From Lichtheimia corymbifera B2541 (Eukaryota; Mucoromycota; Mucoromycetes; Mucorales; Lichtheimiaceae): a stretch of 64,000 nucleotides of DNA. Under the pieces are notes generated by a model, which saw only the letters and a program-made list of their open reading frames with translations, was not told the DNA's origin and ran no database searches. Every line of letters starts with the position of its first letter. Position 1 is the first letter of the stretch. The stretch lies in contig JNEU01001087.1 in NCBI GenBank assembly GCA_000697475.1, positions 1 to 64,000 on the forward strand. Direction: 5' to 3'. A program made the position numbers and the translations under genes. Below are positions 50,959 to 58,531 of this stretch, in pieces.

Positions 50959-51948
50959 TTACCTCTTTTTGGCCCTTCCTGATGCGTCTTCTTCTCCATA
51001 GATAGCCATAGGTTGATGCCTTCCACGTACATTACTGTTTGCTGGATCGGAGGGGAAGGACGAAGCAACATCTTCCATGTTGTCTTTTCTCGCACGAATG
51101 GATCGACGTACTTGTTCAACTTGATTGTCATATTCTTCACGTTCATTCTGGTTGGTCTTCAAGGTTTCATTCGCATCCCGAATTTGATTATCAATGGATT
51201 CCAAGACGAGGCGTGTTTGAGTGGACCAATCTTCAAGTGCTTGCATGGTGCGATCCAGCTGTTCCGGCAAAACATCACGACCCATGGTGGTTTCAACTAT
51301 CAATTGCTGTGATCGCTGATCGAGCTTGCCGACAATGATGCCTTGATAGAATGTGTCGATGATCAAATCTTCAAGCTCACGGACATTGGGTATATCGAGA
51401 TATTCTTGTAGTAGCGTGTATTGAAGTGTCTATGTGATGATATATCTCAAAATGTCAATGATTGTGTTTATACCTCACTACTTTTCCATCCCATACCCTG
51501 TTCGTCTCAGAAAGTGATACAATGGATAAATGCTTCAACTTGGCTTTTTGTGTAGGATTCAACTGTGGAAGTTGCTGTTGTTGTGCTGCCGAGTAGAACG
51601 CATTTGTTACACATATGCATCGATATTATTAGGATGAGAGAAAAACGAGCTTACCTGTATAATCCTTATACGTCCCATAAAGGAATATCTTGAGCAAAGC
51701 ATAATAAGGTGCTACCTCGGGCAGTGTTGAAGCCTGCCAAGAAGGGAACAAATGAGATTCGTTATGTACTCGATTGAAAGCTTGTAGCATACCTCCATCA
51801 CATTCGGTGCCTGCGCTAACTCTGAAAAGACGTATACACCAGGTGCCGCCAACGCATCACTGATCAACTTTGCATTGGCTGATCCCTTGACCGATTTGGA
51901 CAAGAGTAGAAAAGGCTGAAGCTTATAACTAGTGGACAAGTCGCTCAT
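50959..51948 (-). CDS. CSN7: COP9 signalosome subunit 7 (PCI domain)
   Basis: This is a subunit of the CSN complex that removes NEDD8 from cullins. The order is: an N-terminal helical part ([20 protein letters not shown]), a PCI winged-helix ([15 protein letters not shown] spliced to [25 protein letters not shown], then [19 protein letters not shown]), and a coiled-coil C-terminal helix ([20 protein letters not shown]) as in CSN7. The start at ATG 51948 ([10 protein letters not shown]) is preferred over an in-frame Met at 51987. There are four short introns. Confidence 0.87.
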
Positions 51949-52496
51949 GTTGCAGGAAAGGGAAACGTTTTGAACCAAGAGAGACACGGTACGCGAGTTC
52001 GCCTCGGCTTGAATTTCCGACGCCTCATCTTTATGCTGTTAACCGCCCTTTGAAGCTGAACAATAAATATCAAAGGCATAAAATGCTTTAAACATATCAT
52101 TGTTATCCATTCATTTATTCATCAAATCCCGTTTTCGAGTCGATATGATCTTTTTTACATGTATCATCTCCAAAAGAAAGAGAGCACCAATTCATCAACG
52201 TGGTAGTATGTAAGGTAAATAGGGGTATCACTTGGGTCAATATTTCACTCTCATCACATGAATAAGTATTTGATGAACATGATATATTGGGTTGGGTAGC
52301 AAGGTAACAATGTACATCAAGTTGAATGATGAGTCTGCCGTTAACAACCAAAACAATAAAACGCTAGTTCTAGTGAATGATCGTTATGCAGCTCCAGTTT
52401 TTGGTACTGGGCATAGGATAATGGAAAATCGGGATCTAGAGACACTCAAGTCAGATGATGTAGCAGAGGTTTTGAAAAAAATGAAAATTCTTACCT
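51949..52496. other. spacer downstream of the Fanzor-like gene; candidate guide-RNA region
   Basis: This lies 3' of the Fanzor-like ORF (minus strand) and 5' of CSN7. In known TnpB and Fanzor loci the guide (omega) RNA overlaps the nuclease 3' end and runs past it, so this is where one would lie. I see no obvious conserved hairpin or terminal repeat. The plus-strand ORF at 52292-52534 starts with TTG and is not supported. Confidence 0.3.
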
Positions 52497-55400
52497 CTAT
52501 CTTTGGAAAGCCGTCGGCCGTCCATGTCCTTTGATCAATGAATACGCGATGGAGTACATGTTCTTCGAGGCATTGATATCCCGATTCCAAATGGTTTTGC
52601 AATTTTGATGTGTACAAAGCAAAACAGAATGCAATTTGTATAGATCTCCAATCTTAACGTTCTCCAGGGACTTGTGATGACATTTGGAGCAGATCTAATA
52701 AAGAAAATAGCGTAACAACATGAGAAAGCGATCGCTTAATGATAAATAATGATTGATACGTACCTTTGACGTGTTGAACTCGTCAACCGAAATAGTCACA
52801 CATCTACCGTCTAGTTCTGCTCTTCGAATACCGGCACGCAGCTTACTTGACAAGCCTGGTCTCGACCCCTTCCATCCTGTTGTCCTCCACTGCCCATCTC
52901 CAAGTGCTATCAAAGGTATTTTTGTTGATCCTTGATTGGGTAGCGGCCTCCACTTCTTCTTATTGTCACGGCTATAGGTATTACAATAACGATATAAGTA
53001 AAAGCAGTGTGATCACTCCAAAAAGACTTACCTTTTCTTAAGCACACGCTTGTTTTTCTTATCCTTCCTCTTTTGCTTCCTTCTGGCACGTCTGAGATGT
53101 GTATTGTTAGTAGCCGTTTCACACAATGTTAAAGGATACACCACTTTACCCTATTCTCTTGTGTCGGTTTTTCTTTTTACACCTCTTCTTGTTTTTTGGA
53201 CTTGTTGGGTACTTTTTTCCGCCATCCAGCAATGTGTTCACCATAACATCCAATGCTCGTTGTCTCCCTTGGTAGTTCAGGAAACGCAATGTGTTGAATC
53301 TTGAATCATAGCGTCGTAACAATTGCGGAAGGACCACACATAGTGCTGTTGTGTATGTGAACAATGTATCATAAGAAGCTGTTTTGTACGTCGGCAATCT
53401 TGATTCAATATCCTCGATCGATACACCATCCATCTTCTCCTTTTTGTACTCAAGAATTCTCCTATTTGACTTGTCGATCCCTGCATTGTCGTAGTACTCG
53501 TTTTTTGAGAAATGTCGCACTTGGTGAGTGCCTTGCCCCATCCCATCGGATGCTGTGAATACATCACGTTCCCCGGGGTCCACGCCCCAAAGCTTGAAAT
53601 GATCATTCAAATCTTCCTCGTCAAAATCGTCGGCCTCCAATTGAGGTAGTGCATCTGTAGACGACGACTTGGTAGCGAAGATGACACTCGCACTGACTCC
53701 ATCAGTCAAAAGCTGGTTGGTAAACACATGTCTCCTTTGTGCATCGCCATGACCCTTGATGGACTCAATCTTGAATATGGTACGAAATTGCAAAGCATGT
53801 AACTGATGTGGATTCAAATCTGGATGATCTCTTTCCTGAACAACGTATCGAGCAAGGCCTGCTTGTCGAAGAAATTGAACAAGGCCTTCCGAGCTGATTG
53901 TAATATGCTGCCTGATCATAGAGTAATGTGGAAGCAATGAGAAAGCCTTGATAGGTGTATTGTTCAAGATTGGTGGAGGGATAAAGCATTCATCTTTGTT
54001 CACAGTCGGCTGCATCTGATTGTTGACCTGCTGAAGATATTGACGTGATTTTTGCAAACGAGTTCTGACTTGGATTAGCTGCTCTCTGATCGCCTTTGAT
54101 GCTGCATCAGGCAATGGCATGGTGACATTTTTGTTGGTATCATTGGCAGCGTTGACAAATTGACGTGCTAATAGCGATCTTCGACGCTTGGTTAATTCCT
54201 TGAATTCAGCGTGAGAGTCGATTATCTCCTTGTAGACCCATGGTGCTGTCACTGTTGTGCGTGGCTCTAGTGCTTGATAATGCATCCTCTCATTGTGATG
54301 TTCAATGGATTGTAGAGCAAGGTGGTAAAATCGTAAGAAAGGCCACGGGTCGCGTGTGATTAATGCTGGCGTGATGCCGCTGCTTGGCAAAGGTGTCGCA
54401 TCGACAATGTCGGCCAATTTCATGTCCAGATTCGAGGTGCGTTCGACGTCCTTGGGCCACTTTGGATCATCATCGGTGATTCTAGCGAGCATATACCTTG
54501 CAATCTTGTTTCTTTGAGCACTCGTAAGATCCTATATCCAATAAATTGTAAGATAACCATACAAGTATATGATTGACACAAGGGTCATTACCGGAACGCG
54601 TATCTGCAAAGTGAATCGGAACCACGAGAGCGCCCGCGATGGAAATGCCTCGACAATTTGATTGATAAAGATGGTCTTCGATTGTTGTGCAAGATAGGCC
54701 ATCATTGGCGAAAAGCTGCTGTGTCTCAGTTGTTCACCGGGTACTTGAATGTTGCTAGCATAACGCTTCACTGCTTCGTACACTGATGTCAACTCTGCAA
54801 CTGGTATATCGTTTCCGGAGGCTGCTCTTCCAAGGACAAGCTGTTGACATGCGTAAAAGAACGCTGACGTGAAAAGTCGCGGTGGTGGTTCTTGATTATC
54901 TTCTTCAAGCCATTTTGTGATGAAAATGGTGGCAAATAACAAGGATGTCACTGCAACATGACGAATCAAATCCGTAACACGCTCAACTTGATTGACGAAT
55001 CGATCCGCTTCAGCTCCTTCTAGCCGTAACAGCTTTTTCAATCCTGTCTTCATCGAGGTACGCCTAAACTTGTCACCGAGCAAGTTCTTCAAGTAATCGT
55101 TTATGTTTTCTGCTCGTAAAGGGCAATTCGCAGAACTTGAACGTGAATGATGGTTCAAAGGATCGTAGATCCCTGCCTTGACGCAAGAGGGACAAGGAGG
55201 CGTATTGATAGGCTTGTCAAGCATTCTCCGTTTGTTACGAGCGTCCTTTTTGTCATCATCCGCTTTCCTCTTTAATGCTCTCTCTATGTAGGCAAAAGCA
55301 ATGAAATGAGTAAAAGCAACGAAACACATCCTTCTTATACTTACTGTTGAATGGACAAGCGGAACTTCTTGCATCAGCGTGACCTTGCTTCCCACATCTC

Positions 55401-57009
55401 TTGCAAACTATGTATATTACATTATCAGTTACATGTATACTATAATGCCCATATACTAGCTTATTCATACCTATTGCATTCTTTTTATTTTTTTCCTCCT
55501 CCTCTTTGCGTTGCAGTCGCTGTAGTTTGCTTTTCTTCTTGAAGAGAATAATGCCCTGTGTTGTCATCCCAGAGTACCGTCTTTCTCGGACACCTAGTAG
55601 CTCGAAGGCTCTGTTCACGTCACATCCGGATTGTCGTAATGCCTCTTCTGCCGCTTTTTGGCTGTAGCGACGGGTGTTCATTAAGATCTCGAGAGCATTG
55701 TCATACTCTATTAGCCACCATGCATTAGTAAATGAGACGCCAAACGATAATGTTATAAATACCTTGTTCACTTTGACTGAGATCCTCGATAGTCGTGCGA
55801 TAGTTGACCTCCACAGCTGTAGCTATTACAATTTCCATTAGAAAATGAGCCGCGATTATTCAAAGCCAAAGTACTTACGTAAGCTTTTTTCAAGTCGCGA
55901 TTGATGCTGCTCTGCATGATGATGGTCTTCTTGCCATTGTTGGGCTTGTTGTTGTTGTGATTGATGAGAGTCTCTTTGCCGTTGTTGGGGATTGCTGCAG
56001 CGCACGTGCTTGATTACGAGGGTACCGTATCCCCTACATAGATAATATGGTAAGCATCTCGTTATGAGTATCTCGACAGCACATACCGCTAAGTAATCTA
56101 ACGCATTTTCAATGTCTATATCCGGCGAGACTTCAGCCACGACCTCGATTGCTTCTAATGAATAGCCAGCATCAAGAATGGCCCGTCGCACTTCGTCGTT
56201 TACTGTTTTTGTGAGTCGATACGCATACGATGATTAGAGCAGGATATAACAAACAATTATGCACGATTACCTTGAGGCATTGGTATAGGATCCCAAGGCA
56301 GTTGGTATGTTGCTGTTTTCATGAGTCGATACGCACACAATGATTAGAGCAGGATACAACATACAACTATGCATTATTACCTTGAGGTGTTGGCCTTATG
56401 GGAGCCCAACGCATGTGGCTGGATGCTGTTTTCATGAGTCGATACGCACACGATGATTAGCGCAGGATATAACACACAACTATCCGTGATTACCTTGAGG
56501 TGTTGGCCTTATAGGAGCAGCACTACCTGCTGGTGATCGAGTAACATGTGTATCAGCTTCAGCTACATGAATACACAGCGTTGTTAATAGGAATCATATC
56601 CATCAAAACGGCTTCTACTTACCCTGCGGCTCTGAGGTAACCGAGGGAGTATCCGGCTGTGTCAAACCAATATCGATTGCCTGCGGCTCTGAGGTAACTG
56701 GGGGAGTATCCGGCTGCGTCAAACCCAATAAGAATGTTGTTACTGAGAACACACGAATGAGCACATACCTCGTGTGAAAGAAGGAATTCTAAGGCATGAT
56801 TCATATCTTTAAACTTATTCAAGGCGATACATGAGAGCTCCCGATCAAATCCCATTTGCACCAAGTAGTCAATTTCTTTTTTCCCTTTGTAAGGTTATAC
56901 AGAATGAGATCCCAGCTCGAATGTCAATGTTGCATGATCTACGTTGCTGTTGCTCCGACAAAACACGCCTTATGTCCCTTGATGACCTTGACTTCTTCTT
57001 GGGTGGCAT
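52497..57009 (-). CDS. UBA-zinc knuckle-Fanzor/TnpB-like RuvC nuclease
   Basis: This is a many-exon gene from ATG 57009 (MPPKKKSRSSRDIRRVLSEQ). UBA-like domains come first: DYLVQMGFDRELSCIALNKF; AILDAGYSLEAIEVVAEVSP (about 56180); and YDNALEILMNTRRYSQKAAE (about 55700). Two Cys/His knuckles follow (CKRCGKQGHADARSSACPFN and CPSCVKAGIYDPLNHHSRSS). The C-terminal half is an OrfB/Fanzor-type nuclease: RuvC-I Asp in LWGVDPGERDVFTASD (codon 53578-53580), RuvC-II Glu in SVDEFNTSK (52779-52781), zinc ribbon CSKC...CTHQNC, and RuvC-III Asp in WNRDINASKN (52578-52580). All three catalytic acids are present. The stop is TAG at 52497. The junctions from the third UBA to the nuclease are in frame; linkage of the first two UBA domains rests on splice reading and could instead be a separate gene. 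Confidence 0.78.
56201..56525 (-). repeat. three tandem exon-intron units of about 112 bp
   Basis: The unit containing GTTTTCATGAGTCGATACGC ... TTACCTTGAGGTGTTGGCC recurs from about 56201, 56311 and 56424. On the coding (minus) strand each unit is one micro-exon ending in a Pro-rich RPTPQ-like peptide, plus its intron with donor, branch region and acceptor. It is therefore a tandem duplication of whole splicing units inside the UBA-Fanzor gene linker. Confidence 0.82.
56623..56735 (-). repeat. 57-bp in-frame tandem duplication
   Basis: CCTGCGGCTCTGAGGTAAC recurs exactly 57 bp apart (56623 and 56680) with the following sequence also repeated. It encodes two 19-residue repeats, LTQPDTPPVTSEPQ and LTQPDTPSVTSEPQ with AIDIG between. 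The linker after the first UBA domain has therefore grown by unequal duplication. Confidence 0.8.
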
Positions 57010-58531
57010 GAGGTGAATAAAGAGTATGGGACAAGAGAAAAGAGAGTAATTTTGACAATCCAAGTTTCAGTAGCACATTGCATGACGCACCATCAAAGCT
57101 GTCAGCCACTCCGGTGTCGTCACCTACCATCGTTCATAATACAGCTTAAGCATTATTGGGGGCCAAAAGATTGTCATGCACACATAATCCCTTTATTGAT
57201 TGTATATTAAACCTTGACGAATAATAAAGGCAATGATATTGTCTTGAGCTCGATAATGGAAACAGGGTGAGCAGTGGAATGTGTTGCTTGCTTTCGAACA
57301 GGAGCAGCAATGAAGCAAAGAAAGATGATGATGACTACTAATCGCAGCAATAGCGTAAGAGCAGAATGCTACAGAACACGAAGAAATGGAATGAGACAGG
57401 GAAATGACACCGGCTGCATGAATACGAATGTTGTCAGCAGGATTCTCCCTCCGCAAACCAATGAACTGCAATCGATGGAGATCGACCGCTTCTTATTGGA
57501 CCAAAAATTCCTGAGGATCTCTGTTACGTTACTGGTATCTACTACATGGATCGGCGGGATATAACCTTCGTGTCACCAAATTTTGCACCCAGGAATTTCA
57601 CGCAATCCCACCACTAAGCGGAGTATACTACGTGAGTGAAAAAGACGTTTTGACACCTTTTTGGATAAGTTGTTGCAATATCTATGTTATATATGAAAGA
57701 AACTGTAGGCCATAGACTTGCTCTAACCAACCTTGGACTTGGGATAGCTGTCAGTCAGCACTCCCAACGTCCCAAGCGAGCTCGAATTTAATGCATATTA
57801 CAATAGTAGAGAGCATTTGGGCCTGAATCGCTTCGTGATATCACCCATTTTAAGTTTTGAGAAAGGTTGGCAAGCGGGTTGGCACACATGTATGGGCCTT
57901 CTCAATCTGAAACCATTGTTACCATTCGTGGAGATACTCATGAACTTAAAGGGTTTTGATAAAAGGCTTATGAGCAATGGTAGGTATAACTGGGTGCAAA
58001 AGGATAGCCAACACTGCAAAAGAATAAGTCCGCTAAATGTGCGCCTGAACCAACAAGCTGCCTGCCGACATTGTGTTCAAACACATTTTAGTAACGCCCA
58101 TGCTTTTGATACCTCCATGCATAAAATATATAGAAGTTGAAGTATCCTTCCCATTAATTCGCTCGTTCTTACGATGACTCTTGGTATTGGAAATATGCTT
58201 GCAGAAAAACTCTAGAACTAGTAATTGCCAAAGCTAGCAATTGCCGGATCACCAAAGATAGCTTCTTGCAGCTAACACAGGTGTTATAGGATCAACTTCT
58301 CTCAGAATATCGAATGTATACATGCAAAGGTGCTTTATATGAAAATCTCAGGGTTCAACCATCACTGCTCGCATAACATAAATAATGTGAAGTTACCACT
58401 AGTTCTAGTGGCGAAACTTTAAAGATAGCCGTTAAAAGTCATCGATCCAACGCTGACTGAGATGGCTCCTATCACCACTGCAATTCCAATCCAGGTGTCC
58501 ATCCATACTCCGTATCCCAGACCACAACTAA
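57010..58531. other. 1.5-kb intergenic region between divergent genes
   Basis: This lies between the UBA-Fanzor gene (-) and CCDC174 (+). ORFs at 57274-57564 and 57817-58140 have no motif or splice context. Both promoters should lie here. No terminal repeats matching the other side of the Fanzor gene were found. Confidence 0.45.

Follow-up and report, generated by a model that had tools for sequence, protein, structure and literature searches.

The 64,000-nucleotide (nt) stretch of Lichtheimia corymbifera B2541 analysed here (contig JNEU01001087.1, positions 1 to 64,000; the window) carries a minus-strand gene, at 57009-52497, that joins UBA-type domains and zinc motifs to a Fanzor nuclease. 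We read its product as the Fanzor1 endonuclease of a transposon, extended at the N terminus by a UBA/zinc adaptor and putatively both RNA-guided and directed by ubiquitin, an account that, taken whole, we give about an even chance. Directly supported are the gene model, the domain order, the intact RuvC triad, the keeping of that order in two lineages of the genome (lineage A, that of the window, and lineage B) and the mobility of lineage B. The lineage A model has 17 exons, encodes 1170 residues and contains 16 introns of 53-88 nt each, all GT-AG, in keeping with an earlier note on this DNA that had described an intron-rich gene. The protein runs from a basic N terminus through three UBA-like domains and two zinc motifs to the nuclease, about 330 residues preceding the Fanzor part. 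Its features are as follows (contigs of the assembly carry C numbers).

52497..57009, minus strand: UBA-zinc-Fanzor1 gene of lineage A, from the gene model, Pfam, a PDB sequence match and same-genome relatives
56943..57009, minus strand: exon 1, with the basic N terminus and DIRR motif MPPKKKSRSSRDIRRVL, a motif common to C199, C153 and lineage B
56769..56882, minus strand: UBA1, residues 24-61, with MGF loop and closing LL (Pfam, dN/dS)
56174..56509, minus strand: three tandem 113-nt units, containing linker mini-exons 5 and 6 with adjoining intron and exon-edge sequence
56087..56202, minus strand: UBA2, residues 144-182
55587..55707, minus strand: candidate UBA3-like segment, residues 225-264, 62% identical to lineage B
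55345..55407, minus strand: zinc knuckle 1, residues 304-324, CX2CX4HX7C, from sequence
55126..55194, minus strand: zinc motif 2, residues 355-377, CPSC...H...CP, from sequence
53578..53580, minus strand: RuvC-I aspartate D873, in GVDPGE; GVDPG is invariant in a seven-sequence alignment
52779..52781, minus strand: alternative RuvC-II glutamate E1100, in VDEFNTSK, six residues ahead of the zinc ribbon
52578..52694, minus strand: zinc ribbon and RuvC-III aspartate D1144, in NRDINAS (Pfam, PDB sequence match)

The nuclease part has a complete RuvC triad, D873 (in DPG), E1100 and D1144, with E1100 separated by FNTSKI from the first zinc-ribbon cysteine, in CSKC. A Pfam scan of the lineage A protein places PF07282, the TnpB/Fanzor zinc-ribbon domain, at residues 1089-1151 (E 1.2e-10), so that the Asp, Glu, Asp and zinc ribbon described earlier are indeed intact. 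The DPG of RuvC-I does not vary across the 7 aligned sequences. DPG together with an alternative glutamate is given as a Fanzor fingerprint in the available text of PMC10711439, and the motif published earlier by Bao and Jurka (2013), D-X(125,275)-[TS][TS]XX-C4 zinc finger-X(5,50)-RD (PMC3627910, available text), is found here as D873, TS 1103-1104, the zinc Cys residues and RD 1143-1144. Among solved structures, the sequence matches best that of the Spizellomyces punctatus Fanzor (8gkh, E 4e-6) and next best that of Guillardia theta Fanzor1 (E 0.022). On all sequence features examined, the nuclease part is a Fanzor1; carriage by transposable elements, a further mark of that group, is seen at the lineage B junctions, the ends of the window copy being provisional. 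Across the genome searched (35 Mb, 432 contigs), PF07282 gave 15 matches at E up to 1, 5 of the 15 above cut-off, all on contigs other than the window's. The five above cut-off (C363:27590, C312:2060, C364:107309, C362:91579 and C281:51541) are probably other Fanzor lineages. None of 17 genome-wide PF00627 matches falls on those 5 contigs, in a scan of limited sensitivity that also missed the window's UBA1.

The fusion of UBA domains to nuclease is very likely real, because the joined form is present in two diverged element families of this one genome, and the sequences indicate that the two parts move as one unit. Lineage B, on C328 and C396, has the basic N terminus, UBA1, UBA2, UBA3, knuckle 1, zinc motif 2 and Fanzor in the order of the window, and by inspection the intron separating knuckle 1 from the Fanzor part has an identical codon position and phase in both lineages. 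The central exon of lineage B is 49% identical to that of the window for residues 192-460 of the query and 36% identical for residues 6-90 (45% in the multiple alignment); by part, identity is 27% in UBA1, 43% in UBA2, 62% in UBA3, 67% and 66% in the zinc motifs, and 53% and 56% in RuvC. None of 500 shuffles scored as high for UBA1-3, both zinc motifs or the RuvC parts; the short N-terminal match is weak, 8 of 500 shuffles equalling its score. A window-type relative on C199 has UBA1 no more than 1.3 kb apart from the RuvC end and is read, from its sequence, as an internally deleted copy. Between its UBA1 and that of the window, the nonsynonymous (dN) and synonymous (dS) divergences are 0.32 and 1.09, a dN/dS of about 0.3. 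The claim that a single gene combines a Fanzor with UBA domains is thereby upheld by the recurrent order, the shared knuckle/Fanzor intron position and the UBA1 ratio. Further fragments of the family lie on C344, C147, C138 and C153.

Lineage B is, judged from its junctions, a recently mobile element. At its left end C328 and C157 are alike from a sharp point (CAATCCATGTT...) onwards, with unrelated flanks, and C390 has the flank of C157 together with about 222 nt of the B left end. At its right end C396, C337 and C106 are alike up to CCTTA (C396:2565), with 99-100% identity over 230-231 nt, and then pass into three different flanks; the element ends overall are 96-100% identical. The right end lies 30 nt past the stop codon of the nuclease gene, and TnpB elements likewise have the gene end near the right end of the element. 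Five contigs (C328, C157, C396, C337 and C106) terminate inside or near the B element, a pattern that near-identical repeats would cause. For MuDR-type elements the criteria were terminal inverted repeats and a 9-bp target duplication; in a check for such repeats, the left 16 nt of lineage B were unmatched in C396:1-9000 on both strands at up to 3 mismatches.

For the window copy, two candidate ends were found:

52361..52412, minus strand: right-end candidate, a hairpin (52389-52412) and the palindrome CACTAGAACTAG
58397..58410, minus strand: left-end candidate, the palindrome CACTAGAACTAGTG

The right-end sequence stands alone at C370 and has a related form at C138, and palindromes like that of the left end occur at C199, C8 and C361:64614-64632. 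On this sequence evidence the window copy would provisionally end at about 58410 and 52361. The left end is provisional because a 200-bp unit with two ACTAG-palindromes is also found at C157, where it lies some 1.4 kb beyond the B element, and may be an independent small element. We consider it very unlikely that a host gene domesticated from a transposon is what remains in the window: among the copies found for this lineage it alone is open, the rest being decayed or partial, which would suit domestication, but the repeat ends around it recur elsewhere and lineage B is mobile. For the family as a whole, domestication was rejected on the lineage B junctions. The description 'host-adapted' in the earlier note is accordingly unsupported for the family, lineage B having moved recently and the window copy belonging to a dispersed repeat unit whose relatives are decayed.

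The N-terminal adaptor is best defined at UBA1, whose assignment as a UBA domain is solid on sequence: two relatives exceed the Pfam cut-off for PF00627 (22.4 bits), the lineage B counterpart at 36.8 and that of C199 at 23.4, and the MGF is retained in lineages A and B and in C199. UBA2 alone is predicted to form a three-helix bundle (predicted local distance difference test, pLDDT, 93). The zinc knuckles claimed ahead of the nuclease are present as the two zinc motifs listed above. The UBA-like domains might nonetheless not read ubiquitin and serve instead in protein, ribosome or DNA docking, or in dimerisation, like the UBA-like domains of HYPK, TS-N or RuvA; we regard this as possible though somewhat unlikely, since UBA1 retains MGF and the closing LL and its lineage B counterpart scores well on PF00627. 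Less probable again is that the module governs turnover, as a stabilising or shuttle signal that lets the transposon protein avoid or reduce its loss to the proteasome while its targeting is unchanged. UBA domains of shuttle proteins (Rad23-type) protect against degradation, and the module here is N-terminal and set off by linkers, both of which count for such a role; the Pfam scan of the lineage A protein speaks against it, no ubiquitin-like domain being among the 5 families found.

Several observations weigh against a ubiquitin-reading, RNA-guided Fanzor1 encoded by one gene. The window's own UBA1 scores 17.8-21.1 bits on PF00627, under the cut-off, and is absent from the 17 matches of the genome-wide scan, so that the proposed profile search succeeded for the Fanzor part and, for UBA1, in its relatives only. 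UBA2 has no match in Pfam. The UBA3 model reaches pLDDT 71 overall and about 59-75 within the domain, and of the 17 rows listed by fold comparison (VIA) none is a UBA chain, winged-helix-type proteins standing on top; its identity as a UBA domain is doubtful on this model. Of the three UBA-like domains originally proposed, the first (Pfam and relatives) and the second (three-helix model) thus stand, and structure prediction leaves the third in doubt. In lineage B, C328 and C396 overlap with 599 of 602 compared positions equal and differ by a 130-nt stretch (L029:3240-3369), present only in C328, and by two single-base gaps, both in C328. Neither keeps one frame through the overlap, so a complete open B gene was not read, C328, C157 and C396 each holding part of it; C328 and C396 may represent separate copies or, given errors of assembly, a single locus.

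Two further points concern the joining of the parts. The exon 8/9 junction is the one doubtful junction of the lineage A model, which was predicted from sequence. In a protein search with the central exon (5297 candidates scored, 8 with E up to 1), the nearest named homologue was Mucor flavus MFLAVUS_002890 (P0002, 773 residues; 31% identity over 99% of the 444-residue query), which has both zinc motifs in common with the window protein. Homology begins at its residue 12, within the UBA3 exon but past UBA3, so that the annotated protein starts just beyond the UBA3 position; either it lacks a UBA part or that part is unannotated, and PF07282 was not detected in it. Junction and homologue alike would suit two adjoining genes, one for the UBA part and one for the Fanzor, merged in reading. 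We hold this extremely improbable, and the two-gene reading was rejected, because lineage B has the same order and knuckle/Fanzor intron position and the C199 copy keeps UBA1 with RuvC. Nor does folding favour a guide RNA at the right end of lineage B. Its 140-nt sequence has no folding advantage over shuffles (z 0.30), and no guide-RNA claim is made from it; that of the 140-nt right end of lineage A is slight (z -1.39), with 18 of 200 shuffles folding equally well. The 54-nt end at C370 folds better than shuffles (z -2.74; 2 of 200).

The single-gene UBA-Fanzor1 thus shares with Fanzor1 proteins (Bao and Jurka 2013, PMC3627910, available text; SpuFz, 8gkh) the DPG, alternative Glu, [TS][TS]xxC4, RD, RuvC order and transposon carriage, and its C-terminal GHGRP...F.R end is as in SpuFz. 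Compared with known Fanzor1, it adds the N-terminus, in which UBA-type domains and a zinc knuckle occupy some 330 residues; the available text of PMC3627910 mentions no UBA. The Mucorales Fanzor1 elements MCi-2, MCi-4, MCi-5, ROr-4 and PBl-3 are multicopy, come from related fungi and in some cases lack terminal inverted repeats; no UBA module is described for them in that text (PMC3627910), though they may have a UBA part. UBA1 has the MGF loop of the UBA family (PF00627/PF22562), placed here on a transposon nuclease. RuvC and zinc ribbon are common to prokaryotic TnpB (IS200/IS605, IS607); DPG and the alternative Glu are Fanzor marks that typical TnpB does not share (PMC10711439, available text), and the window gene is spliced, with an N-terminal adaptor.

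In wider searches, residues 330-1170 and 378-985 gave no match in the protein database, where about 8000 candidates were scored and P0002 was itself missed, so that this is no evidence of absence. A scan of viral contigs matched 24 stretches, none of them confirmed. The word 'ubiquitin' occurs 0 times in the main text, as available, of PMC3627910, PMC10432273 and PMC6338049. The Fanzor1 kind is already known; the UBA-joined form is a variant new to the literature searched, in line with the statement in the earlier note that its author knew of no described fusion of this kind, and as coverage of that literature was partial a prior description is possible.

Within the gene, intron 1 (56942-56885) is identical at 56 of 58 positions between the window and C199, and at 59 of 62 between lineage B and C153, in both cases more conserved than the adjoining exons; this could be due to recombination or to an RNA element with a function. 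The UBA1-UBA2 linker contains a coding repeat with 57-nt spacing (56623-56725), and at 56174-56509 an exon-plus-intron unit is tandemly duplicated in three copies of 113 nt. The element of lineage A is flanked on one side by a minus-strand gene at 51500-52040, which from its reading frames we take to resemble COP9 signalosome subunit 7, and on the other by a plus-strand frame starting at about 58532. The 130-nt stretch of C328 resembles sequence of that copy's own left flank and is possibly a small non-autonomous element. At C336:29525-29570 (L069) there is an exact copy of 46 nt of the flank immediately upstream of the C328 insertion, followed by diverging sequence, possibly marking an empty site that is related. 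A second left-end-like stretch, partly within the window, lies at C361:62844-64633 (L037), next to sequence that resembles a decayed RasGAP gene of IRA type.

For the UBA-Fanzor protein we infer ubiquitin binding, a guide RNA and cleavage by analogy. As in Fanzor and TnpB biology, a guide RNA from the right end, overlapping the 3' end of the gene, would lead RuvC to flank-matching DNA, where the cut would aid retention or copying of the element via repair. As UBA biology suggests, UBA1, and perhaps UBA2, would bind the ubiquitin of a host protein, chromatin under replication or with damage being the likeliest site, and such docking would favour cutting where homologous repair can take place; nucleic-acid contacts may be contributed by the zinc motifs. 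The available text of PMC10432273 discusses, for Fanzors at large, a role in cut-and-copy. In a more specific version, which we think decidedly unlikely, the protein would be a ubiquitin-gated RNA-guided mobile nuclease, UBA1/UBA2 and a PCNA-box-like DIRR-[FL] hook docking on ubiquitinated replication/repair proteins so that it cuts when a sister chromatid can serve as template. The N-terminal DIRR-[FL] motif presumably resembles a degenerate PCNA-box; docking at such proteins, with a cut and then a copy from the sister, is speculative.

We know of no established role for Fanzors in eukaryotic cells. Recurrent fusion to ubiquitin-type adaptors offers a testable handle on the host pathway into which a Fanzor plugs, and the gene would be a naturally occurring case of an RNA-guided nuclease fused to an adaptor. 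If UBA1 does bind ubiquitin, a link of Fanzor cutting to replication or repair would be directly testable. The fusion hints that the ubiquitin signals of the cell may steer nucleases of this type.
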